Shown: piece after piece, positions 1,982 to 47,385 of the stretch
Numbering within the stretch: position 1 is the first letter of the stretch
Layout of the letters: every line of letters starts with the position of its first letter
Assembly: GCF_900101015.1 (NCBI RefSeq)
Contig: NZ_FNFZ01000006.1
Location: 1 to 64,000, forward strand
Direction: 5' to 3'
Source of the DNA: Sarcina sp. DSM 11001
GTDB lineage: Bacteria; Bacillota; Clostridia; Lachnospirales; Lachnospiraceae
DNA: 64,000 bases
Translations under genes and position numbers: made by a program
Notes under the pieces: model-generated
What the model was told of the DNA's origin: nothing
Databases searched by the model: none
Seen by the model: the letters and a program-made list of their open reading frames with translations, nothing else

Positions 1982-3016
1982 ATGATTAAGGAAGCAATCG
2001 TAAAGATCGTCAGCAAAGGTGACCTCAGCTTTGATGAAGCCTACACCGTCATGAATGAGATCATGAGCGGCAGTACGACGGCGACGCAGAACGCGGCTTT
2101 CCTGGCAGCACTTTCTACAAAGAGTGCCAGGGCGGAGACGACCGATGAGATTGCCGGATGTGCCGCCGCCATGCGGGCACATGCCACGAAGGTTGAGACC
2201 GGCATGGATCTGTTTGAAATCGTGGGAACCGGCGGAGATAACGCACGCAGTTTCAATATTTCCACGACTTCCGCCCTGGTCGCTGCCGCGGGCGGAATGA
2301 AGGTGGGCAAGCACGGCAACCGGGCGGCATCCTCCCAGTGCGGAACGGCTGACTGCCTGGAGGCGCTTGGCGTCAATATCGATCAGAGCCCTGAAAAATG
2401 CCTGGAACTGCTCAAAGAGGCCGGCATGTGCTTCTTTTTCGCCCAGAAATATCACACTTCCATGAAGTATGTCGGCGCCATCCGAAGGGAGCTCGGCTTC
2501 CGGACGGTTTTCAATATTCTGGGACCTCTCACCAATCCGGGAACACCGTCCATGCAGCTCCTGGGAGTCTATGATGACTATCTTGTGGAGCCGCTTTCCC
2601 ATGTACTGGTGAGCCTTGGCATAAAGCGCGGCATGGTGGTGTATGGGATGGATAAGCTTGACGAAATCTCTATGAGTGCGCCTACGAAGGTATGTGAGAT
2701 CAAGGATGGATGGTACCGGACATCCGTGATCACACCGGAGGAATTCGGCTTTATCCGGTGTACGAAAGAAGAACTGAAGGGCGGGACGCCGGAAGAGAAT
2801 GCGGAGATCACACGGGCTATTCTGCGTGGAGCCCCCGGACCGAAGAGAGATGCGGTCCTGGTGAATGCGGGCGCCTCCCTCTATATCGGAGGAAAAGCGG
2901 ACAGCATGAAGGAAGGCGTTGCCCTGGCAGCACAGCTGATTGATTCGGGGAAGGCCATGGAAACGCTCGAGAAACTGATCGAGGTCAGCAACAGGCCGGA
3001 GAAATTATGTAGTTAG
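1982..3016 (+). CDS. trpD: Anthranilate phosphoribosyltransferase
   Basis: The protein has 344 aa, full length for TrpD. It transfers phosphoribose from PRPP to anthranilate, the second step of tryptophan synthesis in the cytoplasm. Motifs seen: GTGGD (residues 82-86, PRPP/Mg site), KHGNRAASS (110-118), and the NILGPLTNP segment near 180. The start has GGAGGAG at good spacing. It is the first gene behind the Trp T-box and is followed closely by trpC and trpF. No trpE/G precede it and no trpB/A follow trpF, so those steps must be encoded elsewhere. Confidence 0.96.
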
Positions 3017-3041: not shown

Positions 3042-3830
3042 ATGACAATACTGGATACGATAGCGAGATATGCCAGAGTGAGAATAGCAAGGGATAAGGC
3101 GTCCATCAGCTCCGGGGAGATGAGGGAGCGTGCTTTTTCCCTTGGAAGAGGGAACGGCAGAGCTTTCTCCGCAGCTCTTGCAAAGCCGGGTCTGCGTTTT
3201 ATCTGCGAGATCAAAAAGGCCTCCCCCTCAAAAGGACTTATCGATCCGGTCTTTGATTACAGGAAGACTGCATCGGAGTACGAGTCGGCGGGAGCAGACG
3301 CAGTTTCTGTTCTGACTGAGCCCAGGTGGTTCCAGGGCTCTGACGAGATCTTCCGGAATGTCCGCAGCCTGATCCGGACACCTATGCTCCGCAAGGATTT
3401 TGTGGTGGACGATTACCAGATCTACCAGGCCAGATGTCTGGGAGCGGATTGTATCCTTCTGATCTGTGCCCTACTTGATACGGAGACGATCCGAAGTTAT
3501 CTTGGCATATGTGAGAAACTCGGGCTGGCAGCCCTGGTGGAGGCGCATGATGAAGAAGAGATCCGGTCCGCGGTCAGGGCAGGCGCCGGGATTATAGGTG
3601 TAAACAACAGGAACCTGAAGGATTTTTCTGTAGACCTGAGGAATGCCTCGCGTCTGCGGGACCTGATCCCTCGGGATGTCCTGTATGTGGCGGAAAGCGG
3701 CGTAAAGACAGCCGGCGATGTCCGTAAGCTGTACCAGACCGGAGCTGATGCCGTTCTGGTGGGGGAAGCCCTGATGCGCTCACCGGATAAACAGCGGCTC
3801 CTCGATGATTTCCGGGAGGCGGCCCGATGA
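3042..3830 (+). CDS. trpC: Indole-3-glycerol phosphate synthase
   Basis: The protein has 262 aa, a normal length. It closes the indole ring from carboxyphenylamino-deoxyribulose phosphate. TIM-barrel active-site motifs are present: EIKKASPSKG (56-65, catalytic Lys), VLTEP, LRKDF, ALVEAHDEEE, IGVNNRNL and VAESGV. It starts 25 bp after trpD with a GGAG site, and its TGA overlaps the trpF ATG by 4 bp (ATGA). It is regulated with trpD by the T-box leader. Confidence 0.96.
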   Translation: MTILDTIARYARVRIARDKASISSGEMRERAFSLGRGNGRAFSAALAKPGLRFICEIKKASPSKGLIDPVFDYRKTASEYESAGADAVSVLTEPRWFQGSDEIFRNVRSLIRTPMLRKDFVVDDYQIYQARCLGADCILLICALLDTETIRSYLGICEKLGLAALVEAHDEEEIRSAVRAGAGIIGVNNRNLKDFSVDLRNASRLRDLIPRDVLYVAESGVKTAGDVRKLYQTGADAVLVGEALMRSPDKQRLLDDFREAAR

Positions 3831-4591
3831 CAAAAATAAAGATCTGCGGTCTGTTCCGTGAACAGGATATCGAATATGTGAATGAAGCGCTGCCGGATTA
3901 TGCCGGATTTATCCTGCATTTTCCCAAAAGCCACCGCAATATTGACCTTGGAAAAGCGAAGGCTCTGAGAGACCGTCTGGTCCCGGAGATCCGGCCTGTC
4001 TGTGTATTCGTAGACCAGCCTCTGGAGACCGTGATCCGGTCTGCAGAATACATTCAGCCGGATATCCTGCAGCTTCACGGCAGTGAAAGCAACAAGTACA
4101 TTGAAGAATTGAAAGAAAAAACAGGATTGACTGTCTGGAAAGCATTCCGGGTCAGAAACAGCGCATCGATGACGGAGGCTATGGAATCCAGTGCGGATCT
4201 GGTTCTTTTGGACAACGGTTACGGCACCGGGGAAGTTTTTGACTGGTCAAAGGTGGAATCGTTACTTTTCAGACCGGCACGAAATTCGAGGCGTTTTTCG
4301 CGGGTTTTTCGCGAAAAATCCGAGTGGAACGGCGTTCGCCCCATTCGCGAAGCGAATTCAGCATGGGCGAACGCAAGTTACTGTCACGCCCCTCGAGGGG
4401 GCGTGGACAGTAACGCGGAATCCTTCCGGCGTCCTTTCATTCTCGCAGGCGGCCTGACCCCGGGGAATATCCCGGATGCTGTTTTAAGGCTGTGTCCAGC
4501 AGCAGTTGACATCTCCTCCGGGGTTGAGACAAACCGTCAGAAGGACAGGGACAAAGTGCTCGCGGCAGTCCGGGCAGCCCGTTCCTGCTGA
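3827..4591 (+). CDS. trpF: Phosphoribosylanthranilate isomerase interrupted in frame by a palindromic repeat
   Basis: The protein has 254 aa against about 200 for the family. TrpF landmarks: KICGL with catalytic Cys7, VCVFVDQP, LQLHGSE, LLDNGYGTGEVFDWS and, after the interruption, RPFILAGGLTPGN and AAVDISSGVE. Residues about 145-198 are encoded by a 154-bp multi-hairpin element plus a duplicated GGAATC. They read as an Arg/Ser-rich segment unrelated to TrpF. Removing exactly 162 bp restores DWSKVESFRRPFILAGG, a normal TrpF join in the loop before the phosphate-binding GGL motif. Reading frame and stop are intact, so an active enzyme with a surface insert is possible. The start overlaps trpC by 4 bp. 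Confidence 0.92.
   Translation: MTKIKICGLFREQDIEYVNEALPDYAGFILHFPKSHRNIDLGKAKALRDRLVPEIRPVCVFVDQPLETVIRSAEYIQPDILQLHGSESNKYIEELKEKTGLTVWKAFRVRNSASMTEAMESSADLVLLDNGYGTGEVFDWSKVESLLFRPARNSRRFSRVFREKSEWNGVRPIREANSAWANASYCHAPRGGVDSNAESFRRPFILAGGLTPGNIPDAVLRLCPAAVDISSGVETNRQKDRDKVLAAVRAARSC
4261..4414 (+). repeat. Palindromic element copy A, inserted in trpF
   Basis: The 154-bp element runs from GTTAC to GTAAC. Hairpins: GTTTTTCGCG/CGCGAAAAAT; an outer stem GCGTTCGCCC/GGGCGAACGC enclosing ATTCGC-GAA-GCGAAT; and GTTACTGTC...GACAGTAAC around ACGCCCC/GGGGCGT. GGAATC directly precedes it (4255-4260) and recurs at 4417-4422, a candidate target-site duplication. A homologous copy in the opposite orientation is at 19136-19288. 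Stem sequences differ between copies but stay paired. It has no coding capacity of its own; mobilisation in trans is inferred. Confidence 0.88.
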
Positions 4592-4658
4592 CCGGATTAA
4601 AATGAAGGCATGGCAGGCGGCAAGGCCCGACCGGGCAGCCCGCTCCTGCTGACCGGAT
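4570..4658 (+). repeat. Direct repeat copied from the trpF 3' end
   Basis: A 28-nt sequence spanning the end of trpF and its stop (4570-4597, starting CCGGGCAGCCCG) is repeated with one change at 4631-4658. The period is 61 nt. The same spacing recurs at 23735/23796 and 50674/50735. Confidence 0.75.
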
Positions 4659-4689
4659 ACTGACCTGATGTATCTGATGTACATGATAG

Positions 4690-4740
4690 AAAACCCGGTT
4701 CGGGATCTTCCATGGGGAAGACCCTGAACCGGGTTTTTTA
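4690..4740 (+). terminator. Terminator of the trpDCF operon
   Basis: The arms AAACCCGGTTCGGG... and ...CCCTGAACCGGGTTT form a long stem with a short CATGG-containing loop, then TTTTTT. It lies about 100 bp after trpF and can end the trp transcript. Confidence 0.85.
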
Positions 4741-4829
4741 CAGCAGAATGATCAACAGCAGGATGATTAGCAGCAGGATGATCAACAGCAGGATCATCAG
4801 CATCAGAACCATCAGCATCAGAACCATCA
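4740..4829. repeat. 15-nt tandem repeat, six copies
   Basis: The unit is ACAGCAGGATGATCA-like, in six contiguous 15-nt copies. The array starts at the trp terminator and ends exactly at the stop codon of the convergent VanY gene. It gives no useful protein on either strand. It is one of many fixed-period arrays at gene ends in this window. Confidence 0.8.
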
Positions 4830-6098
4830 ATAACCGGAATCTACGATTTCCCATCCACCGTTTTCAGTGCGCCCGAGCCACCACTGGTAATCGGTGTATT
4901 CAGTGTCAGGCGTCAAGGGAGAGAGACCACTCTCGACCGGGCTGTGAAAGCTGCCCAGGAATTCGGCGACCTGTGTGTATTTTTCTGTTACGCCTTCATG
5001 GGAATTCAGCCATGCGATGTTTTCTTCGGTGCAGCACTCATCACCGGCATAGCGCAGGCTGTGGAGCTCACAGCCCTTCCAGGAGGCAAAGTTGCATTTG
5101 ATCTGGATGTCGGCCTCTTCCAGGTCCTCCTGACTGTAGAGTTCGGAAGTGCCGTAGTCGATGTCCACATCTGTCTCATTGACATCTCCGAGGTAACCCT
5201 CCAGGGTCACGCCGGTCGACATGATCTCTCTTGCGATATCTACATTGTCCAAATACCGGATGTGCCAGGGCTCATAGCCATAGCCGGTGAGATGCTCCTT
5301 GCCCTCCAGAGCGCGGAGGACAAAGCCGTAGTCGGCAATCTTCGCATGGATTTTCTCCCAGATTTCTGGATACTGGATCATATCTTCGTTTTCAAAAACG
5401 TCAACGCCGTCGATAATGAGATACAGATCCAGCGCCAGTCCGGTGTGGTGTTCGGAGAAGCCCGGAGTCGCAACTGTCTTTGCGGCATAGTCCGCACCGT
5501 ATTTTTTTGTAAAGTCGTCCATGATCCTCTGCTGATCAGCGACACTGCGGCGGCCGGAATCAAGATCCACGTACACACCTTCCTTTTCCAGGTCTTCCTT
5601 CAGGCGCAGGTAGGCATCATAGGTTTTCTTTTCCACCTCTACATCATCGCCCAGGGAATTTGTCGTATGGACTGTCTCAAGCGCGTCCTCCCAGCCCTCA
5701 GGCAGGGGATGAATCTTGTTGACCAGCACGAGATAGTCTATGCTCTCTGCGGTAGTCTGTGCGCTGTCCGTGGCAGCAGTGGCAGCAGTTTCAGGAGCCT
5801 CCTCAGTGGAGAAGGCAGCGGCTCCCGCAGTCGAAAACTCAGTAGCTGCTGCGGTCGAAAAGGCAGCGGCGTCAGCGGAAAGAGTCGCAGAAGCTTCCTC
5901 AGCGGCAGCAACAGAGAGATCTGCAGAAGCATCATCAGAATCTTCAACAGAATCCGCAGCGGAAACGTCTGCTGGAGCTTCCGTTTCTTTTTCTGTATCT
6001 GCGGCAGGAGCAGCGGTTCCGGAAGAACAAGCCGCAAGCGCAAATACCATACCAGCCGCAACGATCAGGCTGCAGCATTTTTTCCATGTTTTTTTCAT
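4827..6098 (-). CDS. VanY-type D-alanyl-D-alanine carboxypeptidase lipoprotein
   Basis: The protein has 423 aa. A lipoprotein signal ends in LAAC (Cys24), so it should be anchored on the outer face of the membrane. Residues 25-118 are a Ser/Ala/Glu/Asp-rich linker. The VanY/D,D-peptidase domain follows, with Zn and catalytic motifs SGRRS (181-185), SEHHTGLALD (215-224, His and Asp ligands) and EPWHI (276-280). A C-terminal region (about 310-423, ending GGWEIVDSGY) has no recognised domain. Expected activity: removal of the terminal D-Ala from peptidoglycan stem peptides. There are no van regulatory genes nearby, so a cell-wall maintenance role is likelier than glycopeptide resistance. It is convergent with trpF. 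Confidence 0.88.
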   Translation of the reverse strand: MKKTWKKCCSLIVAAGMVFALAACSSGTAAPAADTEKETEAPADVSAADSVEDSDDASADLSVAAAEEASATLSADAAAFSTAAATEFSTAGAAAFSTEEAPETAATAATDSAQTTAESIDYLVLVNKIHPLPEGWEDALETVHTTNSLGDDVEVEKKTYDAYLRLKEDLEKEGVYVDLDSGRRSVADQQRIMDDFTKKYGADYAAKTVATPGFSEHHTGLALDLYLIIDGVDVFENEDMIQYPEIWEKIHAKIADYGFVLRALEGKEHLTGYGYEPWHIRYLDNVDIAREIMSTGVTLEGYLGDVNETDVDIDYGTSELYSQEDLEEADIQIKCNFASWKGCELHSLRYAGDECCTEENIAWLNSHEGVTEKYTQVAEFLGSFHSPVESGLSPLTPDTEYTDYQWWLGRTENGGWEIVDSGY

Positions 6099-19120: not shown

Positions 19121-19296
19121 CTGTAGCCGTCCCCTGCTACAGTACACGCCCTATCGAGGGCGTGTACTGTAGCTTGCGAAAATCCCATTCCAAATCGCTT
19201 CGCGATGGGATTTTCGCCGTAAAACTCGGGTTTTTCGCGAAAAAGCCGCGAAAAACGCCTCGAGTTTCGAGCCGGTCTGTACTGTAGCCGTCCCCT
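19121..19296 (-). repeat. Palindromic element copy B with flanking direct repeats
   Basis: The element core is 19136-19288 (153 bp) and is reversed relative to the trpF copy. Read on the minus strand it has the same order: left end GCTACAGTAC, AGACCGG, a GTTTTTCGCG/CGCGAAAAAC hairpin, an outer stem GCGAAAATCCC/GGGATTTTCGC enclosing ATCGC-GAA-GCGAT, and a terminal 16-bp stem GCTACAGTACACGCCC. CTGTAGCCGTCCCCT occurs at both flanks (19121-19135, 19282-19296). Of this, CGTCCCCT is the likely target duplication and CTGTAGC belongs to the element end. Confidence 0.88.
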
Positions 19297-27267: not shown

Positions 27268-28707
27268 ATGACAAGAGGAAAAATCATTTATCTTGACAGT
27301 GATCAAAAAGCATACAGTACAATCGAATTTAATGGAGATATGTATCCTGAAGGACATGGAGATGAAATCCTCGAGAGATTTGAGGAGAATTATTTTACAA
27401 GTTTCACAGTTTATGAAAACTTTGTTTTCAGGTTTAATAAAAGAAACTTCGGTTATCCGGAAAAACTGATACACTCCCTTTCCTGCAGCCAGACCGGTGT
27501 TATTGATGTAACAGGAAACTGGACAGATTACCTGTATATAATTAATGAGTCCACCCAAAAATGGATCATATTGGACGAGGAGGGAACTAAGGATCTTCCT
27601 GACCAGACATTGGGAGTTGTAAGTTTTAAAAGTGTAGAGAATGTAATACAGAAGAAATCGGAATCCGTATCGGATCAAACCAGCGTAGTATTACATCGAT
27701 CAGAAGAACCCGCATTTGTATCGGAATCAGCACCTTTCAGGAAGGCAGTGAGTAATAATCCTGCGATTGGTACGCCGTATGATGATGCATACCGTACACT
27801 GCTTAACGACTGTGAGCGCCTTATTATCCCTGTCATCAACGAAGTGTTTGGAAAAGATTATCGGGGAGACGAAAGGATTATCCATCATCCGGATATTCAT
27901 TTTATTAACAGACAGGATGGGACTGAAGAAAAACGCATCACAGACAGTATCTTTACAATTTCCAGTAAAACTGATGAAAAATACCTTATGGAGTGTCAGT
28001 CTTATGGGGACAGCAGTCTGCTCGTCAGGATTTTTGAGTACATCACTCAGGAAGCGATTGATGGCAGTGAAATGTCAGGGAGTGTGCTAAAAGTTACTAT
28101 TCCGCATGCGGGTGTACTTTTTCTTAGAAGCACTGGGAAAACACCTGATCAAATGAACGTTTTCATTGTAACGCCTGGAGGAAACTGTTCTTTCGATATT
28201 CCTGTGATGAAGATACAGTCTTATTCCATAGATCAGATTGTCAAACGAAAACTGTATTTCCTGTTGCCGTTTTATATTTTTAATCATGAAAAGTATTTTT
28301 CTGAATATGAAAAAGATGAGAAAAGTCGTTCATCTCTTCAAGGTGAGTACATAAGAATTATGGAGTTGTTGGATCAGGCGGTAAAAGAGAAGGAGATTTC
28401 TTATTATTACCGCCGCACAATTATTGATATGATGAAAAAGGTTTTGGACAACATAGCCAGAAATTATGAGAATGTTAAAGAGGAGGTGAAGAAAATCGTG
28501 GGCGGTGAGATTTTGGAGCATGAAGGTAAAACGATCTATAACGAAGGAAAAGAAGAAGGACACATTGAAGGAAAAGCAGATGGAGAAGCACTGGTATCTA
28601 AACTGATGAGTATTTTGTTTAAAGAGAATAAGATTGAAGATGCAAAAAAGGCAGCGGAAGACAGTAACTATCTCCATCTTCTGTTAAAACAGTACAACAT
28701 TGAGTAG
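27268..28707 (+). CDS. PD-(D/E)XK-like (Rpn/transposase-type) protein
   Basis: The protein has 479 aa from ATG 27268, with GAGGAGG nine bases upstream. The N-terminal 150 residues are a poorly conserved beta-rich region. Then TPYDDAYRTLLND, ITDSIFTISSK and YLMECQSYGD give the D...E-x-Q pattern of PD-(D/E)XK nuclease-fold proteins of the Rpn/'transposase-like' group. The C-terminus is helical with GKxxGxxEG-type repeats (EGKTIYNEGKEEGHIEGKADG), typical of these families. Low GC suggests transfer. The function of this group is unsettled: recombination or phage defence have been proposed. Confidence 0.7.
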   Translation: MTRGKIIYLDSDQKAYSTIEFNGDMYPEGHGDEILERFEENYFTSFTVYENFVFRFNKRNFGYPEKLIHSLSCSQTGVIDVTGNWTDYLYIINESTQKWIILDEEGTKDLPDQTLGVVSFKSVENVIQKKSESVSDQTSVVLHRSEEPAFVSESAPFRKAVSNNPAIGTPYDDAYRTLLNDCERLIIPVINEVFGKDYRGDERIIHHPDIHFINRQDGTEEKRITDSIFTISSKTDEKYLMECQSYGDSSLLVRIFEYITQEAIDGSEMSGSVLKVTIPHAGVLFLRSTGKTPDQMNVFIVTPGGNCSFDIPVMKIQSYSIDQIVKRKLYFLLPFYIFNHEKYFSEYEKDEKSRSSLQGEYIRIMELLDQAVKEKEISYYYRRTIIDMMKKVLDNIARNYENVKEEVKKIVGGEILEHEGKTIYNEGKEEGHIEGKADGEALVSKLMSILFKENKIEDAKKAAEDSNYLHLLLKQYNIE

Positions 28708-28836
28708 AAGTATGTTTTGTGGTAATAGTCTCACTAGTAAAAGACCATGGAACCCTAAAACTTTCGCTGAGTCATTGAGTGACCGGAAAAACACAGCAGA
28801 GACTGCAAATATTGCATTATTGTATACAAATTTCCA

Positions 28837-28864
28837 TTGACTTCCCTTCCAAGACGTGTATAAT
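28837..28864 (+). promoter_or_regulatory. Promoter of dapL
   Basis: TTGACT (28837-28842), a 16-nt spacer and TATAAT (28859-28864). Predicted start near 28871, about 96 nt before the dapL ATG. Confidence 0.75.
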
Positions 28865-28877
28865 GTGTTTTAGAGCA

Positions 28878-28925
28878 AAGGCGCTTGAGGAAACAGAATA
28901 TCCGTTTCTTCGGGTGCCTTTTTTT
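28878..28925 (+). terminator. Leader terminator (possible attenuator) before dapL
   Basis: AAAGGCGCTTGAGGAAAC pairs along its whole length (with wobbles) to GTTTCTTCGGGTGCCTTT, followed by TTTT. It starts only about 7 nt after the predicted transcription start. It therefore either attenuates dapL or yields a short RNA. The upstream gene at 27268 reads in the same direction but is separated from it by this promoter. Confidence 0.75.
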
Positions 28926-28966
28926 GTTTTTTCGGCGTATCCTGTGTCTGACTGGAGGATCTGTAC

Positions 28967-30184
28967 ATGGTAGCTGCAAATCAGGACTATCTCAAGCTCC
29001 CGGGGAGCTATCTGTTTTCAACAGTGGCAAAAAAGACAAAAGCCTATACGGACGCGCATCCCGGGGCGCGGATCATCCGTCTCGGGATCGGGGATGTGAC
29101 CCTGCCGCTCCCGCAGGCTGTGATAGAAGCTCTTCACCGGGCAGTGGATGAGCAGGCAGACGCGGCGACATTCCGCGGGTATGCACCGGATCTGGGCTAT
29201 GATTTTCTGCGGGAGACCATCGCGGAACAGGATTTCCGTGCGAGGGGCTGCGATATTGCGGCAGACGAGATCTTTATCTCAGACGGAGCCAAGAGCGACT
29301 GCGCGAATATCCAGGAGATTTTTGAAAAAGACGCCCGGATCGCTGTCTGTGATCCGGTCTATCCGGTTTATGTCGACAGTAATGTCATGGCCGGCAGGGC
29401 CGGGACTTATGATGCCGGAACACAGATCTGGAGCCGGGTCCTCTACATGCCCTGTACAAGAGAGAACGGCTTTGCGCCGCAGCTTCCGGATGAGGCACCG
29501 GACCTGATCTATCTGTGTTTTCCCAATAATCCGACCGGCGCCGCGGTGACAAAGGATTTCCTGCAGGAGTGGGTCGACTACGCCAACCGCATCGGTGCTG
29601 TCATCCTGTACGATGCGGCCTATGAAGCCTATATTTCAGAAGAAGGGATCCCCCATTCGATCTATGAGTGTGAGGGGGCCAGGACCTGCGCCATTGAGAT
29701 GCGCTCTTTTTCCAAAAACGCGGGATTCACCGGGCTGCGGCTGGGCGCCACGGTCATCCCCAGGGATCTCAAGGACAAAAACGGACAGGCCTTCCATCCC
29801 CTCTGGGCGAGGCGGCACGGTACAAAGTATAACGGTGCTCCCTATATCGTCCAGCGCGCAGGCGAGGCCTGCTATTCTCCGGAAGGAAAGAAGCAGATCG
29901 CGGACATGATCGGGCACTACATGAAAAACGCCCACTATATCCGCGACAGCCTGAAATCCTTCGGCTATGAGGTCTCCGGCGGTGTCAACTCGCCTTACAT
30001 CTGGCTCCGCACACCGGAGAATATGACCAGTTGGGAGTTTTTTGATCATCTTCTTGAAAAGGCCAATGTCATCGGCACACCCGGCAGCGGATTCGGCCCG
30101 GCGGGCGAGCATTATTTCAGGCTGACCGCCTTCGGTACCTATGAAAACAGCGTGGAGGCGATGGAGAGGATCCGGAAGCTGTAA
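28967..30184 (+). CDS. dapL: LL-diaminopimelate aminotransferase
   Basis: The protein has 405 aa, the DapL length. It makes LL-diaminopimelate from tetrahydrodipicolinate with glutamate, for lysine and peptidoglycan. PLP class I/II motifs: RLGIGDVTLPLP, TFRGYAPDLGYDFLRE, FPNNPTGA, the Schiff-base Lys in RSFSKNAGFTGLRLG, and FRLTAFGTYEN at the C-terminus. GGAGG precedes the start. It has its own promoter with a leader terminator. It is followed at 89 bp by purA. Confidence 0.96.
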   Translation: MVAANQDYLKLPGSYLFSTVAKKTKAYTDAHPGARIIRLGIGDVTLPLPQAVIEALHRAVDEQADAATFRGYAPDLGYDFLRETIAEQDFRARGCDIAADEIFISDGAKSDCANIQEIFEKDARIAVCDPVYPVYVDSNVMAGRAGTYDAGTQIWSRVLYMPCTRENGFAPQLPDEAPDLIYLCFPNNPTGAAVTKDFLQEWVDYANRIGAVILYDAAYEAYISEEGIPHSIYECEGARTCAIEMRSFSKNAGFTGLRLGATVIPRDLKDKNGQAFHPLWARRHGTKYNGAPYIVQRAGEACYSPEGKKQIADMIGHYMKNAHYIRDSLKSFGYEVSGGVNSPYIWLRTPENMTSWEFFDHLLEKANVIGTPGSGFGPAGEHYFRLTAFGTYENSVEAMERIRKL

Positions 30185-30272
30185 ATCCGGAGAAATCGGG
30201 TAAATTCGCCATTAGAATGTTCTGCATAACGTATTTTTATAAAAATATTAAAGACGAGGTCGAGGAGCATAA

Positions 30273-31547
30273 ATGAGTAATTGTGTAATTGTCGGTATTA
30301 ACTGGGGAGATGAGGGAAAGGGCAGGATGGTAGATCTGCTGACCCGGGGGTATGACCTTGTCGTGCGCTATCAGGGCGGCGGAAACGCCGGACATACTGT
30401 TGTGAATGAAAAGGGAAAATTCGCCCTCCATCTGCTACCTTCCGGCGTATTCAGGAGCGGTGTCACCAACATTCTCGGGAACGGAGTCGCCTTTGATCCT
30501 GAGAACCTCTGGAAAGAAATGGAGGAAGTGCGTTCAAAGGGTGTGGAGCTCACACCGGAGAACCTGAAGATCAGCAGCAGGGCGTCCCTGCTCCTTCCCT
30601 GGCACAGGGAGCTGGATGCGCTGGAGGAAACGCGTCTCGCTGACAAGCAGTACGGATCCACGAAACAGGGGATCGCGCCTTTTTATTCCGATAAATACCA
30701 GAAAAAGACCGTTCTTGCCGGTGAGCTTTTTTATCCTGAGGAACTCAAAGATCATCTGAAGGATCTGATGGAGTGGAAGAATCTGACGCTGACAAAAGTA
30801 TATGGAGCCAGACCCTGGACGATGGAGATGCTTGAGAAATGGATCCATGATTTCTGCGAGCCCGTCAGACCCTTTATCTGTGATACGGCGGCCTTTCTGG
30901 AGCAGGCTGTGGAGGCAGACAAAAAGATTCTGTTCGAAGCGCAGCTGGGCGCTCTCCGGGACCTGGACTACGGCATCTATCCCTACACGACCTCTTCCAA
31001 TACATTGGCGGCCTATGCGCCGATCGGCTCAGGCCTGCCGTCTGCCCGGATCGATGAAGTGATCGGTGTAGTCAAAGCCTATTCCACCTGCGTGGGCGAG
31101 GGACCGTTTGTCTGTGAGATGTTTGGAGAAGAAGCTGAAAAACTCCGCGAAGCCGGCGGGGAATATGGAGCCAAAACAGGCAGGCCCCGCCGCGTGGGTC
31201 CTATTGACCTTGTCGCCACCCGTTACGGCGTCAAAGTGCAGGCGGCTACGCAGATCGCCCTGACGAAACTGGATGTGCTCAGCTATATGGACAGGATCCC
31301 TGTCTGCGCCCGGTACCGGATAAACGGGAAGGAGACGGACCGTTTCCCCTTCCCCACCGAGCTGGATAAGGCTGAACCCGTGATCACCTGGATGGACGGC
31401 TGGAAATGTGATATTTCCGGAGTCAGACACTGGGAGGACCTGCCGCGGGAAGCCAGGGACTACGTGACCTGTATTGAAGAGGCTGTCAAGTGCCCCGTGA
31501 CTTATGTGTCCGTGGGACCGGAGCGGGACAGTATAATTTTCAGATGA
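30273..31547 (+). CDS. purA: Adenylosuccinate synthetase
   Basis: The protein has 424 aa, complete. It couples GTP hydrolysis to adenylosuccinate formation from IMP and aspartate. Motifs: INWGDEGKGR near the N-terminus (GTP/catalytic loop, Asp and Lys), GGGNAGHTVV, GSTKQGIAPFYSDK, TGRPRRVGPIDLVATRYG and the C-terminal TYVSVGPERDSIIFR. GAGGAG precedes the ATG. It may be co-transcribed with dapL, and is followed by a terminator. Confidence 0.97.
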   Translation: MSNCVIVGINWGDEGKGRMVDLLTRGYDLVVRYQGGGNAGHTVVNEKGKFALHLLPSGVFRSGVTNILGNGVAFDPENLWKEMEEVRSKGVELTPENLKISSRASLLLPWHRELDALEETRLADKQYGSTKQGIAPFYSDKYQKKTVLAGELFYPEELKDHLKDLMEWKNLTLTKVYGARPWTMEMLEKWIHDFCEPVRPFICDTAAFLEQAVEADKKILFEAQLGALRDLDYGIYPYTTSSNTLAAYAPIGSGLPSARIDEVIGVVKAYSTCVGEGPFVCEMFGEEAEKLREAGGEYGAKTGRPRRVGPIDLVATRYGVKVQAATQIALTKLDVLSYMDRIPVCARYRINGKETDRFPFPTELDKAEPVITWMDGWKCDISGVRHWEDLPREARDYVTCIEEAVKCPVTYVSVGPERDSIIFR

Positions 31548-31645
31548 TCCTTATTTTGACAGCATTCATAATTTCAATTTCCCATGAGAAAGAGAGAATA
31601 TGAAAATGAAACTATGAATGCCGACAGCAGTAAACCATGAACAGT

Positions 31646-31680
31646 GAAAAACGTCCTGATAAAAGGGCGTTTTTTATTTC
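31646..31680. terminator. Bidirectional terminator between purA and the alkylation-repair gene
   Basis: AAAACGTCCT and AGGGCGTTTT form the stem, with TTTTTTATTT on one side and an A-run on the other. It therefore suits both convergent genes. Confidence 0.75.
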
Positions 31681-31683
31681 CAT

Positions 31684-32376
31684 TTATTTCTTTTTTATTT
31701 TCAGGCTCTTGAGGTATTCCTTCTGCTCCGGCGCGATGCGGTAACTTTCCACGGCTTTCTGGATCGCTTTATTGTGTGTCCAGACATCCAGTCTGCGGCC
31801 TTCAATGTACGGCAGTACAGCATCATACTGCTTTGCCAGGGCAGTAGCGAAATACCAGGCGGTCATCATGTTTACATAGTATTCTTCTGACCGGATACCG
31901 GAGACCATTTCCGGATATGCCCTGTCGAAATCTTCGTTCAGGAAATGCTCCATCAGCATCCCGACCGCAAAACGGATCGTGTAGGTCTGGTCAGAGCATA
32001 TCCATATTTTTACAGGATTCAGCAGCTCCTGCCGGTGCTTTTTAAACACCTTCGGCGACAGCTGGTCGCAGGTCGCCCAATTATCTATATAGGGCAGAAA
32101 ACGACTCACTTCTTCGATGCATTTTTCATAGTCCTTCATTTCTGAAAGAATGAAGGCGTGAAGCTGATTTTCGTCAAAATACTGATGGGGCAGATCATCC
32201 AGAAAAGCGGAGATATCGTCTCTTTTGATCAGCTTTTTTGCGTATTTTCTGAGTTCCGGAGTCCGCACTCCGATGATGGAATCCGCGGCGGCGGTCGGGA
32301 TCAGCTTTGCCTGAAAATCCCGGTATTTTTTATCCTGAAGCAGGAACAGGTCTTTTCTGATTTCTTCTGTCAGCAT
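31684..32376 (-). CDS. DNA alkylation repair protein (AlkD-like HEAT-repeat)
   Basis: The protein has 230 aa from the ATG at 32376, which has AAGGAG at correct distance; six upstream codons are excluded. It is all-helical. Seen: LIPTAAADSIIGVRTPELRKYAKKL, DENQLHAFILSE, YIDNWATCDQLSPKVFKK, YYVNMMTAWYFATALAK and LDVWTHNKAIQKAVESYRI. These are the family pattern, with the conserved DNWATCD and Trp/Asp positions. AlkD-type glycosylases remove N3/N7-alkylpurines without base flipping. Monocistronic. Confidence 0.9.
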   Translation of the reverse strand: MLTEEIRKDLFLLQDKKYRDFQAKLIPTAAADSIIGVRTPELRKYAKKLIKRDDISAFLDDLPHQYFDENQLHAFILSEMKDYEKCIEEVSRFLPYIDNWATCDQLSPKVFKKHRQELLNPVKIWICSDQTYTIRFAVGMLMEHFLNEDFDRAYPEMVSGIRSEEYYVNMMTAWYFATALAKQYDAVLPYIEGRRLDVWTHNKAIQKAVESYRIAPEQKEYLKSLKIKKK

Positions 32377-32642
32377 GGGTACTCTCCTTGTCAAATGGAT
32401 CCTTTTATAAATATATTGTAATACAGATTTGCCGGATTTAAAGAAGAACAGGCTTACATTTCAGATTGCCTTTAAATTCAGGTGTTCTGTGCGACTTCCA
32501 ACGAAAAACCAGAAAAACCATTATTCCAAATCAGTTGAGTCAAGGGTTTTTTCGTGTTACTCTGACACTGCCGGTCAATTGTAATAATACAGTGCTTAGT
32601 GAGGCTGTTTGAAAGCGGGGAGAATACCCATAACAATCGAAA

Positions 32643-35600
32643 ATGAAAAAAAAGAAAAAGAAAAAAAGCGCGGCGGGAATCATTGAACAGTCGAATCCCA
32701 TGCCGCAAAATCCCGCGGCGGATCTGGAGACCTATCTGAAAAGCAGAATGAACGACCTTCCCTGCCGGGATCTGATCAGAAATATTTCCGTCAGTGAAAG
32801 CGGGGACGGGAAGAGCCTGAATGTGACGATCGTTCCAAAGTGCGGAGAGGCCGTCTCTTTAGGGACGCTGAAAATAAGCCTGGAAAACGTGAACGGATCT
32901 CTGTGGAAGAGAAAGAAAAAAGATGCCTGGGCTGGTCTGAAAGGGTATCGTCCCAAAGTTGATCCTAAACTCTCCGGGAGGATCCTGGAGGAGGCAAATG
33001 CCTGTCTGACCGCCTGGAGGGAGGACCACCCCTTCTCTGACGAGTTGAGATCCGACCTGTTTTCTCAGAAGGCTTACGGATTTTTGAGTCCGGGGAAAAT
33101 CAATACACTTCGTTTCCTTGCGGGAGAGAAGGTGCTCACCGGCCAGCGGACGGAGGTCCTTGCGGATGCTGTCCATATGGAGTTTAACGGGATCCCTTAT
33201 AAGGCGGTCTGTGCTCTCCCTGCAGGGACGATAAAGTTTACACTCTCGAAAGCAGACTTTCTCCTGCATCAGTTTGAACTTGTGCGGAAGGAGATCCGGA
33301 CAAAAGAAGCGATCGGCGGGTACCTGACAGAAAAAGGGATCCCCGGGGAGGTGCAGTATGCGGGGAAACCGGGGACCTTCTGTCTCTTATTTGATTTTGC
33401 CCTCAGCAGGGAAAAGGAAACCGTCACTGTCGGGACAGCCTTCCGGAGGATCGTGATGACCGCCTACAGGAATGCCAGGGACAGGGAGAGACAAAGGGAA
33501 GAGAAACTTGAAAAGTACCTGAAGACATGCCCCTGGTACGGGACTTTTGTGGCTCAGGCCGTCCTGACAAGCCTGGAAGAAAACAAAAAGCGGCTGACCA
33601 GAGGGCAGCTTGTCAATCTGCTGAGAGGTGTGAATGTCTCTGCCGATTATGTTTTTGGAGAATACTCTGGAAAGTATAACCTGATGCCAAAGTCCGAAGT
33701 CAGAGAGGTCGTTGACTGCCTGGTCCGGTTCGGCATCGTCGGCGAATGGCGCGTACACGGGGAATATCAGGATTACTATACCTGTTTTGTCACACCGGAG
33801 GGGAAGTTTTTTGAACGCCTGCAGAGTGAAGCAGTCCCGAAGAAGAGGCCGGTCACTGAACAGGAATATCATCTTGTCTTAACAGCTGTGAGGGAAGATA
33901 TCCCGAGGCTTGAAGATAAGGAGAAGCAAAAGCTCCTGCAGGCGGCCGTAAGCATGCGGAGCCTCTTTTTGACCGACCCGGAGCTTATTCTGGACTGCGT
34001 AGAGCAGATGGGAGAGCCCGCGGCAGAATACCTGCGTGACCAATACAAAAACGAAGAGACCAGGACGGATAAAAGGATCCTGAAGCTCCTGCTCAATGCC
34101 GCCTCCGGAAAGGGCAAAGAAGTCCCGAAAAACGGCCTGGATGCCTTCCGGGAAAGGAACGAGAAAAAACGGCGGAAAAAGGAGGAAGAGGAGAAACGGG
34201 ACAGGGAGCTGTTCCAGCTGGTCCTGACGGAGATCCCTGACAATTATGTCGATCTGTATCCCGCCGCCCGCCTGATGCACAGAAAATTTGTCCTCCACAT
34301 CGGACCGACCAATTCGGGCAAGACCCACGATGCGGTCCAGGAGCTGATGCGGGCAGATAACGGGATCTATCTGGCCCCGCTCCGTCTCCTTGCCTACGAG
34401 CAGTATGAGCGGCTGAACCGCGCGGAGTGCCCCTGTTCCCTGGTGACCGGCGAGGAGCAGTTTCTCATAGACGGGGCCAGACACCAGTCCTCCACCATCG
34501 AGATGGTCAGCTTAAAGACCCGCTACGAAGTGGCAGTGATCGATGAAGCGCAGATGATCGCGGACAGGTCCCGCGGCGGCGCCTGGACAGCGGCCATCAT
34601 GGGAGTCTGCGCGGATACAGTGTATGTCTGCGCGGCCCCGGAGGTGGAACAAAGACTTGTGGAGATCATCAAAGACTGCGGAGATGAATATAAAGTCGTC
34701 CACCACAGGAGGATGACGCCTCTTGAATACGAGGAAGAAAAATTCATCTTCCCGGACGATGTAAAGCCGGGGGATGCCCTGATCGTCTTTTCCCGGAGAA
34801 ATGTCCACGCCGTGGCGGCTCAGCTCTGGAAAAAACACGTCAGCTGCAGCATTATCTACGGCGCTCTTCCCTATGACGTGCGGCACAAACAGGCGGAGCT
34901 TTTCGCTGCGGGCAAGACCGATGTGGTGGTCGCCACAGATGCCATCGGCATGGGCATGAACCTTCCCATCAGACGTGTCGTCCTGATGGAGACCGTAAAA
35001 TATGACGGCTTTGAAAGGCGTTCCCTCACCTATGGGGAAATCAGGCAGATCATCGGCAGGGCGGGAAGATACGGCATCTACAATGTCGGATATGCAGCAG
35101 CTGCGGATGACGGTGAGAGGGTAAAAAAGGCTGTCCATAAGCGGCTTGACCCTATCGGGGAAGCGGTGATCGACTTTCCGGAGACACTCCTCACCGTTGA
35201 CGCCACCATCCTCGAACTCATCAAAAAATGGGAGCAGGTCATTCCGGCAAAGGGCTGGTGCAAAGAGTCCGTCGAGCATATGCACCGTATGGCGGAAATG
35301 ACGGAAGACCTGAATGCCCCCAAGCACCTGGCCTATGATTTTCTGACGATCCCCTTTGAAGACGAAAACGGAGAGCTTCTGCAGATCTGGCTGGATATTT
35401 TTGAAAAAGAGGTGCGGGGAAGAGAATACAGCATTTTTGATCAGGCCGCCGCAGTCGAACTGAAAAGCCCCTCCGCTGCTGATGCCATTGACGCGCTTGA
35501 ACAGCAGCACCGTGTCCTGGATCTGTATTACGCCCTGGCCCGCAAGTTCCAGCCCCTTGAGAGTACACTGGAATATATCATGGAAAAGAAAAGAGTCTGC

Positions 35601-38271: not shown

Positions 38272-38390
38272 CAGGGTCATTGAAGGATCATTGCAGGGTC
38301 ATTGAAGGATCATTGGAGGATCGATCGTTGCAGGATCGTTGAAGGATCATGGGAGGATCATTGCAAGGATCATTGCAGAATCATCACAGG
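38272..38390. repeat. Degenerate 11-13-nt tandem array
   Basis: About ten units resembling GGATCATTGCAG / GGATCATTGAA run continuously up to the cobalamin riboswitch. There are no unique spacers, so it is not CRISPR. Confidence 0.75.
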
Positions 38391-38419
38391 ATAAGCAGGT
38401 TCATGTTCAGGGCGGGGGA

Positions 38420-38690
38420 AAAGAGGGTGAAAAGGGAAACGGGTGAGAGTCCCGTGCTGTCCCGCAACTGTGAAATGGTTGTTTTTTCGATTATGCCACT
38501 GGCGGAAATTCTGCCGGGAAGGGGAAAAAACAGACCGGACCTTTCAGCGTGTGAAAGCATATTGAATTTTAAACCGGATATAGCAGAAGGCAGTTCAGAA
38601 CTGAATCCGTCTCTGCTATCCGGTCTCAAAGAAAATGCTGAACAGGTTTGGAAGCCATGAGCCAGGAGACCTGCCTGTAAACGGTCGTCT
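38420..38690 (+). promoter_or_regulatory. Cobalamin (B12) riboswitch
   Basis: Conserved core pieces occur in order: AAAGGGAAACGGGTGAGAGT, CCCGTGCTGTCCCGCAACTGT, the B12 box GCCACTG (38495-38501), and the closing GAGCCAGGAGACCTGCC (about 38659). A large peripheral stem near 38572-38625 pairs ACCGGATATAGCAGA with TCTGCTATCCGGT. It precedes the cobaltochelatase lipoprotein gene, so adenosylcobalamin should repress it. A GGGGCA/TGCCCC hairpin near 38735 may be part of the expression platform. Confidence 0.93.
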
Positions 38691-38970
38691 ATGGTTACGG
38701 AGTATGACCGGAGGACGTGTGGAATGATCAGGGGCAGGTATGCCCCTCCTTTCCGTGTGCTGCCGGGACATGCCCTGTGTTCGCATAGACCTGTTTATCG
38801 GTAAAGATCCTGAGAGAGTTCTGAATGGATTTATACCGGAGACAGGACAGCGCTTTACTCATGACTATTTGCACAGGAGCGCCGCAAACAGTCCATGCAG
38901 CATAGAGAACGCCATTACTTACAGCGTGTTGTTATTCTATTTCAAGAGCGTTCCGGAAGGGAGTTTTTTT

Positions 38971-47194: not shown

Positions 47195-47385
47195 TATGAT
47201 GAAAACAGCGAGCCAAGCGGCTGCAAATGCCATGCTCGCATGAGCATTTGCAGACATTTGGCGAGCGTACAAACATGAGGAAGGAGCCGTTTTGCACCCG
47301 GAACGGGTGCAAAACGAGCGGATTCCGAATGTTTGGAGCGGGCTGGGAGCGTGTAAGCGCGACAGCACGCGTAGTTTTCATCATA
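47195..47385. repeat. 191-bp element with perfect 12-bp terminal inverted repeats
   Basis: The ends are TATGATGAAAAC (47195-47206) and GTTTTCATCATA (47374-47385). Inside are a palindrome CTGCAAATG...CATTTGCAG (about 47219-47251) and a perfect hairpin GTTTTGCACCCG-GAA-CGGGTGCAAAAC (about 47290-47316). It has no convincing gene. It starts two bases after the cbiF stop and is transcribed in the cobalamin unit. A sequence like its right end (GCACGCGTAGTTT...CATATATGTTTG) appears degenerate before cbiD (44981-45018). Confidence 0.82.

Follow-up and report, generated by a model that had tools for sequence, protein, structure and literature searches.

A MITE-like palindromic element inserted in frame into trpF of Sarcina sp. 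DSM 11001, and the repeat family to which it belongs

We analysed a stretch of 64,000 nucleotides, hereafter the window, from the start of contig NZ_FNFZ01000006.1 of Sarcina sp. DSM 11001 (Lachnospiraceae). The genome is a 4.15-Mb draft in 76 contigs, 98.6% complete. Near the beginning of the window lie three trp genes on the forward strand: trpD (1982..3016; PF00591 and PF02885) and trpC (3042..3830; PF00218, E 1.2e-78), both open, and trpF (3827..4591, stop included), which encodes phosphoribosylanthranilate isomerase. Pfam identifies a Fic/DOC family gene upstream of trpD (739-1119); past trpF, at 4827-6098, it finds a gene for a VanY-type D-Ala-D-Ala carboxypeptidase. A repeat spans the 3' end of trpF and the sequence past its stop (4570-4660), with CCGGGCAGCCCG(T/C)TCCTGCTGACCGGAT occurring twice about 61 bp apart, and a terminator-like hairpin followed by a T run was seen by eye at 4690-4740.

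The product of trpF has 254 residues, 54 of which form an insert that splits the PF00697 match in two stretches (128.3 bits for a cut-off of 22.7). The insert is a hairpin-rich palindromic element of 154 bp on the plus strand (4261-4414), which begins with GTTAC and ends with GTAAC. Its ends were placed by comparison of copies, and both DNA and model matches identify it as a MITE-like mobile element. Together with an 8-bp target duplication it adds 162 bp, i.e. 54 codons without a stop in the phase of trpF, and the frame stays open, in agreement with the original prediction of an in-frame insertion. The expected effect of excision also held: removing 162 bp gives FDWSKVESFRRPFILAGG, a normal join with nine linker residues. 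Counted from FDW to two residues before LAGG, nine is the commonest linker length in relatives (10 of 29, eight counted by script and two, L045 and L049, by eye).

The copies of the target are GTGGAATC at 4253..4260 and GCGGAATC at 4415..4422, both on the plus strand, and they differ by a single T/C mismatch. A duplication had been predicted here as GGAATC; it is present, but comparison of copies shows that these 6 bp are only the inner 6 of 8. We examined the flanks of 126 copies across the family, taken as matches down to about 66 bits with lengths of 122-192 bp, 50 of them from the own genome. We left out rows that repeated a place (two in the window and L028), a 67-bit match of 95 bp in L124, and all weaker or reverse-strand rows. 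With fixed ends, the flanking 8-mers were identical in 68 copies and differed at one position in 27, at two in 8 and at three or more in 23, whereas mispaired flanks were identical in 3 of 15750 cases. When the ends were free to shift by up to 3 bases, we found 73 exact duplications, 31 with one mismatch, 14 with two and 8 with three or more (n = 126), and mispaired flanks given the same freedom yielded 22 exact and 330 one-mismatch pairs in 15750. These two tests, with ends fixed and then with data and control optimised equally, left unchanged the conclusion of an earlier one on 40 loci of the own genome, where 22 of the 35 loci with placed ends were exact and 9 had one mismatch; there the ends had been picked in favour of a match, the control had not been re-optimised, and at least three loci (L018, L037 and L040) were apparently misplaced. 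The family duplicates a target of constant length, 8 bp. We also saw two palindromes of about 40 bp, consisting of little beyond the element's two ends and bearing their own 8-bp duplications (about 1976-2015 in both L125 and L128). It is possible that these are the minimal mobile units of the family.

Three hairpins make up much of the element. Hairpin 1 (4294..4318, plus strand, arms 4294-4302 and 4310-4318) falls in its first 65-74 bp, the part common to partial matches. Hairpin 2 (4332..4374, plus strand, arms 4332-4341 and 4365-4374) differs wholesale across subfamilies in the alignment of copies. The terminal hairpin 3 (4377..4414, plus strand, arms 4377-4385 and 4406-4414) is a near-perfect palindrome of 38 bp that starts and stops with the element's own end sequence. 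The arms of the three-hairpin element of 154 bp that had been predicted in trpF were thus found. The element is no product of chance, since in the own genome a DNA search returned 56 match rows and a covariance model 64 matches. The terminal inverted repeats of the family, approximately GTTACNGTNCANRCC, are short and imperfect: 146 places match with at most one mismatch, while the reversed pattern matches 37, and in the trpF copy the two ends read GTTACTTTTCAGACC and GTTACTGTCCACGCC. Folded as RNA, positions 4255-4422 (168 nt) reach a predicted -74 kcal/mol, compared with a mean of -54.5 for shuffled sequences (z = -4.4), and none of 200 shuffles was as low. The same hairpins are present in intergenic copies. 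Covariation of the terminal hairpin was assessed on 21 copies, out of the 126, picked because theirs is about 38 nt long (20 of them distinct). The 16 named pairs were formed in 91.7% of cells, and 7 of them had changed on both sides; this occurred in 26 cells compared with 10.4 under shuffling, a number that none of 500 shuffles reached, with the limit that the rows are related and the shuffles ignore kinship. Slid registers gave at most 8 such cells. Covariation thus indicates that the terminal hairpin is kept. An Rfam scan of the window at gathering score gave no match to the element, only a Clostridiales-1 RNA and a cobalamin riboswitch elsewhere (47200-47380 and 38380-38692).

The 56 rows of the DNA search (E ≤ 0.001) come from 41 separate places, the surplus being fragments of these copies and their echoes on the reverse strand. 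The closest copy to the trpF element is 95% identical to it. One further copy lies in the window at 19136..19288, as had been predicted. It is 153 bp long, on the minus strand between open reading frames, with the duplication CGTCCCCT at 19128..19135 and 19289..19296 (both given on the plus strand). We built a covariance model (R1) that holds only 29 base pairs because the subfamilies differ in hairpin 2, and which we used as a finder and not as structural evidence. It retrieved 64 matches in the own genome. A same-genus sample of 41 genomes contained nine carriers, the own genome included, and an order sample of 146 genomes gave a match in the own genome only (0 of the 145 others), under filters that were stricter in both samples and lost weak matches. 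The other eight carriers, out of 40 genomes, have 19-66 matches each: 66 in G008, 65 in G010, 52 in G018, 29 in G009, 25 in G027, 24 in G014, 21 in G061 and 19 in G011. The proposed search for further copies in this and related genomes was thus positive. A search of named genomes with an exact 38-base pattern, which may have excluded the own genome, gave five stretches: three in RUG12263 and one in RUG12566, each titled uncultured Lachnospiraceae, and a fifth in a Eubacteriales genome. Phage and plasmid records gave no match to the element. To judge from these matches, the element is a member of a high-copy family, which our searches detected in a single genus.

We then compared TrpF with its relatives. 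The search matched 35 other genomes, one of them (G009) through the element alone; loci were obtained for 29 and all were aligned, one of which (L053, from G011) stops within trpF past its linker. The segment is absent from all 29, so that the alignment proposed to look for element-free alleles found them throughout. Six of the element-bearing genomes have an element-free TrpF (G008, G010, G011, G014, G018 and G027). The closest relatives over the first part of the protein, G007 (63%), G005 (59%) and G002 (59%), carry no element anywhere in their genomes according to the covariance model. A scan of viral contigs for relatives of TrpF found none. Of the 27 columns that are invariant in 11 other TrpF proteins, the protein keeps 26; the exception is residue 59, where G is replaced by C.

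The insertion had been placed just before the phosphate-binding loop. This is correct in terms of sequence, but the site itself has strand 6/helix 6 on one side and strand 7 on the other. The turn that leads from helix 6 to strand 7 is situated, in (beta-alpha)8 barrels, at the opposite end from the active site. The solved TrpF structures 1dl3 and 1lbm have seven residues between the two matched parts, and the linkers of G010, G011 and G018 are long at the same place and bear no visible likeness to the insert, which suggests that the turn tolerates length. A single-sequence AlphaFold2 model of TrpF was poor (mean pLDDT 47.3) and served for strand order only: a strand at 125-129, a short helix at 140-142, the insert, and a strand at 205-207. 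The insert itself has a pLDDT of about 27-42 in this model, as does most of the C-terminal half. The insertion site is hence a length-variable turn, which probably faces away from the active site.

The original prediction also proposed a family that enters genes, like that of Rickettsia. Our survey of insertion sites does not bear this out. When flanks were joined across the 126 copies, an ORF picker placed 40 junctions inside a frame of at least 70 residues and 86 outside. Pfam was run on 35 of the 40 (all except L015, L017, L113, L123 and L189) and on seven of the 86 (L008, L089, L097, L149, L156, L157 and L191), a survey blind to genes without a Pfam domain, such as short or unknown ones. 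Among the 35 scanned junctions, from 126 sites, trpF was the only one with a domain on both sides of the element. At one other site (L022, 1499-1535) a UvrD-type helicase has its final residues replaced by the element, which also provides the stop codon; the helicase domain precedes the element. At six sites (L034, L117, L145, L169, L170 and L179) the domain begins beyond the element and the frame of the downstream gene is open back into it; these copies might give start regions or N-terminal extensions. The remaining scanned sites had no domain above the cut-off, with a CHZ match below it at L156, outside the 40. Copy lengths plus 8 are spread evenly over the remainders modulo 3 (41, 43 and 42 of 126), i.e. 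there is no in-frame bias. Many copies have an open frame, with 1.42 of six frames open per copy compared with 0.60 after base shuffling. Were such copies to insert at random within genes, about 7% of the insertions would keep the frame and leave it open (8% for own-genome copies). We also tried a codon-usage score for coding sites, which was too weak and failed to rank trpF itself. Within the reach of this survey, the site data do not support a gene-invading habit.

The trp genes of the window stand alone. In G005, trpE, G, C, F, B and A lie on one contig (by similarity and recognition), with TrpE, TrpG, TrpB and TrpA encoded adjacent to trpC and trpF; used as queries, these four G005 proteins found nothing in the window. 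Contig C49 of the genome carries a second set (G000, about 28156 to 33345, locus L076), consisting of trpD, a trpC-trpF fusion (from Pfam), trpB and trpA. The TrpB and TrpA of this set are 82% and 64% identical to those of G005, its trpD is 41% identical to that of the window, and the composition of C49 resembles the window's. Another carrier, G061, also has two separate TrpF matches. A search for the TrpE N-domain was negative throughout the genome (98.6% complete), whereas all 14 controls were positive. Two partial trp sets without a TrpE N-domain would fit the use of external anthranilate or indole. Because of the second set on C49 and the undetected TrpE N-domain, trpDCF of the window may be a partly redundant remnant, and weak selection may explain the tolerance of the insert.

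A search of the own genome for what might mobilise the family gave no IS1595, IS256 or ISL3 transposase and a single IS66 match, of which the one end that could be read begins with GTAAGCG and does not match the element. Facing pairs of ends 0.4-3.5 kb apart with a duplication were absent from the examined loci, which are mostly 2-4 kb long. The end pattern pointed to no mobiliser among the best 100 of 146 places, nor did it occur in viral contigs. A class of end pairs of 208 bp was ignored as most likely an artefact of gapped alignment. Given the inverted ends, the internal hairpins and the 8-bp duplication, a cut-and-paste (DDE-type) transposase acting in trans would most likely be what moves the copies.

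We consider it highly probable that a copy of a MITE family landed in trpF in frame and was tolerated there, probably without a role in TrpF. The family, made up of non-autonomous DNA transposons (MITEs), would be moved by a transposase supplied in trans, and one copy entered trpF in plus orientation. Because 154 + 8 is divisible by 3 and the phase has no stop, TrpF became 54 residues longer at the turn from helix 6 to strand 7. The insert may be tolerated because this turn is length-variable among relatives and seems to point away from the active site; partial redundancy of trpDCF, given the second trpD-trpCF set, is probably a further reason. Against this reading stand the mobiliser not found in the searches above, the mismatch in the trpF duplication, the 23 of 126 copies with three or more mismatches at fixed ends (8 with shifted ends), and the changed residue 59 of TrpF. 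The insertion looks like a rare lucky event for an ordinary kind of repeat. The TrpF protein with its insert is presumably made. That a working TrpF carries a 54-residue segment recently donated by a MITE, with element-free alleles in relatives, is a tentative proposition that we place a little below an even chance. A pseudogene in the making is a serious possibility, itself just short of probable: trpDCF would be redundant, any insertion free, the frame open by luck and TrpF inactive. The second set with trpD, trpCF, trpB and trpA speaks for it, as do the failure of the G005 TrpE, TrpG, TrpB and TrpA queries in the window, the TrpE N-domain undetected genome-wide, and the one altered column of TrpF. 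It sits less well with the strong Pfam scores of the open trpD and trpC, with the 26 of 27 invariant columns kept, and with a frame that remains open although the duplication has acquired a mismatch. Being in frame and open by luck has a chance of only about 7%, which is mild evidence of selection against disruption, and this outcome of the insertion is somewhat unlikely without any selection on TrpF.

The other explanations fare less well. The in-frame, open, mid-gene position in conserved trpF, the excess of open frames over shuffled copies (1.42 against 0.60 of 6) and the new C-terminus that a second copy gives a UvrD-type helicase are what one would expect of a protein-coding palindrome of the Rickettsia type, adapted to enter genes in frame and adding a peptide to many proteins. 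We regard this as improbable, since trpF alone has a domain on both sides among the 35 junctions scanned of the 40 inside a frame, six domains start past the element, and length plus 8 is even over the remainders (41/43/42 of 126). It is very improbable that selection favours the segment, be it as a novel functional part of TrpF or for an RNA structure that it gives the trp mRNA: the predicted fold is stable and the frame stays open, but the same hairpins in intergenic copies make the fold a property of the element, and none of 29 relatives conserves the segment. Finally, a draft of 76 contigs with many similar copies might have misjoined a repeat into trpF. We find such an artefact extremely unlikely, as both flanks belong to the same trpF gene, the copy is flanked by its 8-bp duplication there, and the nearest copy is only 95% identical. 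The locus is a clean natural experiment on whether a barrel enzyme withstands a chance insertion of 54 residues in a named turn, with empty alleles in relatives for comparison.

The family has the features of MITEs: it is short (122-192 bp) and repeated, lacks a transposase gene, and has terminal inverted repeats and a constant 8-bp duplication. The latter sets it apart from REP/RAYT repeats, which make no target duplication and are moved by a Y1 (HUH) transposase. Titles and abstract openings, with subscription papers mostly outside this scope, described neither this family nor a MITE in trpF; what is added is a MITE family with no earlier description found, seen in one genus, whose 8-bp duplications are clear and whose terminal hairpin covaries. 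Reviews place MITEs chiefly between genes and report in-frame fusions for several families (PMC2229807; PMC10969869). Such fusions are on record for ERIC/RU-1, the 107-bp Correia repeat, YPAL/RU-2, RU-3 and archaeal repeats (PMC2229807; PMC10969869), and Wolbachia-type palindromes are reported in frame within the recombination genes addA, addB and priA (PMC4224334). The Rickettsia elements are therefore not the only well-known parallel, as had been claimed at first. ERIC/IRU/RU-1, Correia/NEMIS and YPAL/RU-2 resemble the present family as short palindromic non-autonomous elements, chiefly intergenic with occasional in-frame fusions, but ERIC and Correia are described with TA ends, in contrast to GTTAC/GTAAC and 8 bp here, and YPAL with duplications of 3-26 bp instead of 8 bp (PMC2229807). 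RUP of Streptococcus pneumoniae is similar in size (107 bp), in its 108 intergenic copies, in its terminal repeats and in its target duplication; it is described as having stops in all six frames and a proposed partner in IS630-Spn1 (PMC2229807), whereas here many copies are open and no partner was found. The palindromic elements of Rickettsia (RPE) and Wolbachia share with the trpF copy the habit of hairpin-rich repeats sitting in frame in genes, RPE being repeated units of 105-150 bp within conserved genes (PMC10969869; PMC2229807). The target duplication of RPE is entered as '?' in the review table (PMC2229807), while that of the present family is a clear 8 bp; the two are set apart by description. 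Nearly half of the first-reported RPEs lie in open reading frames (PMC10969869), compared with one found among 126 sites here plus one at a C-terminus. This corrects the expectation that a copy within a gene implies a gene-invading family like that of Rickettsia.
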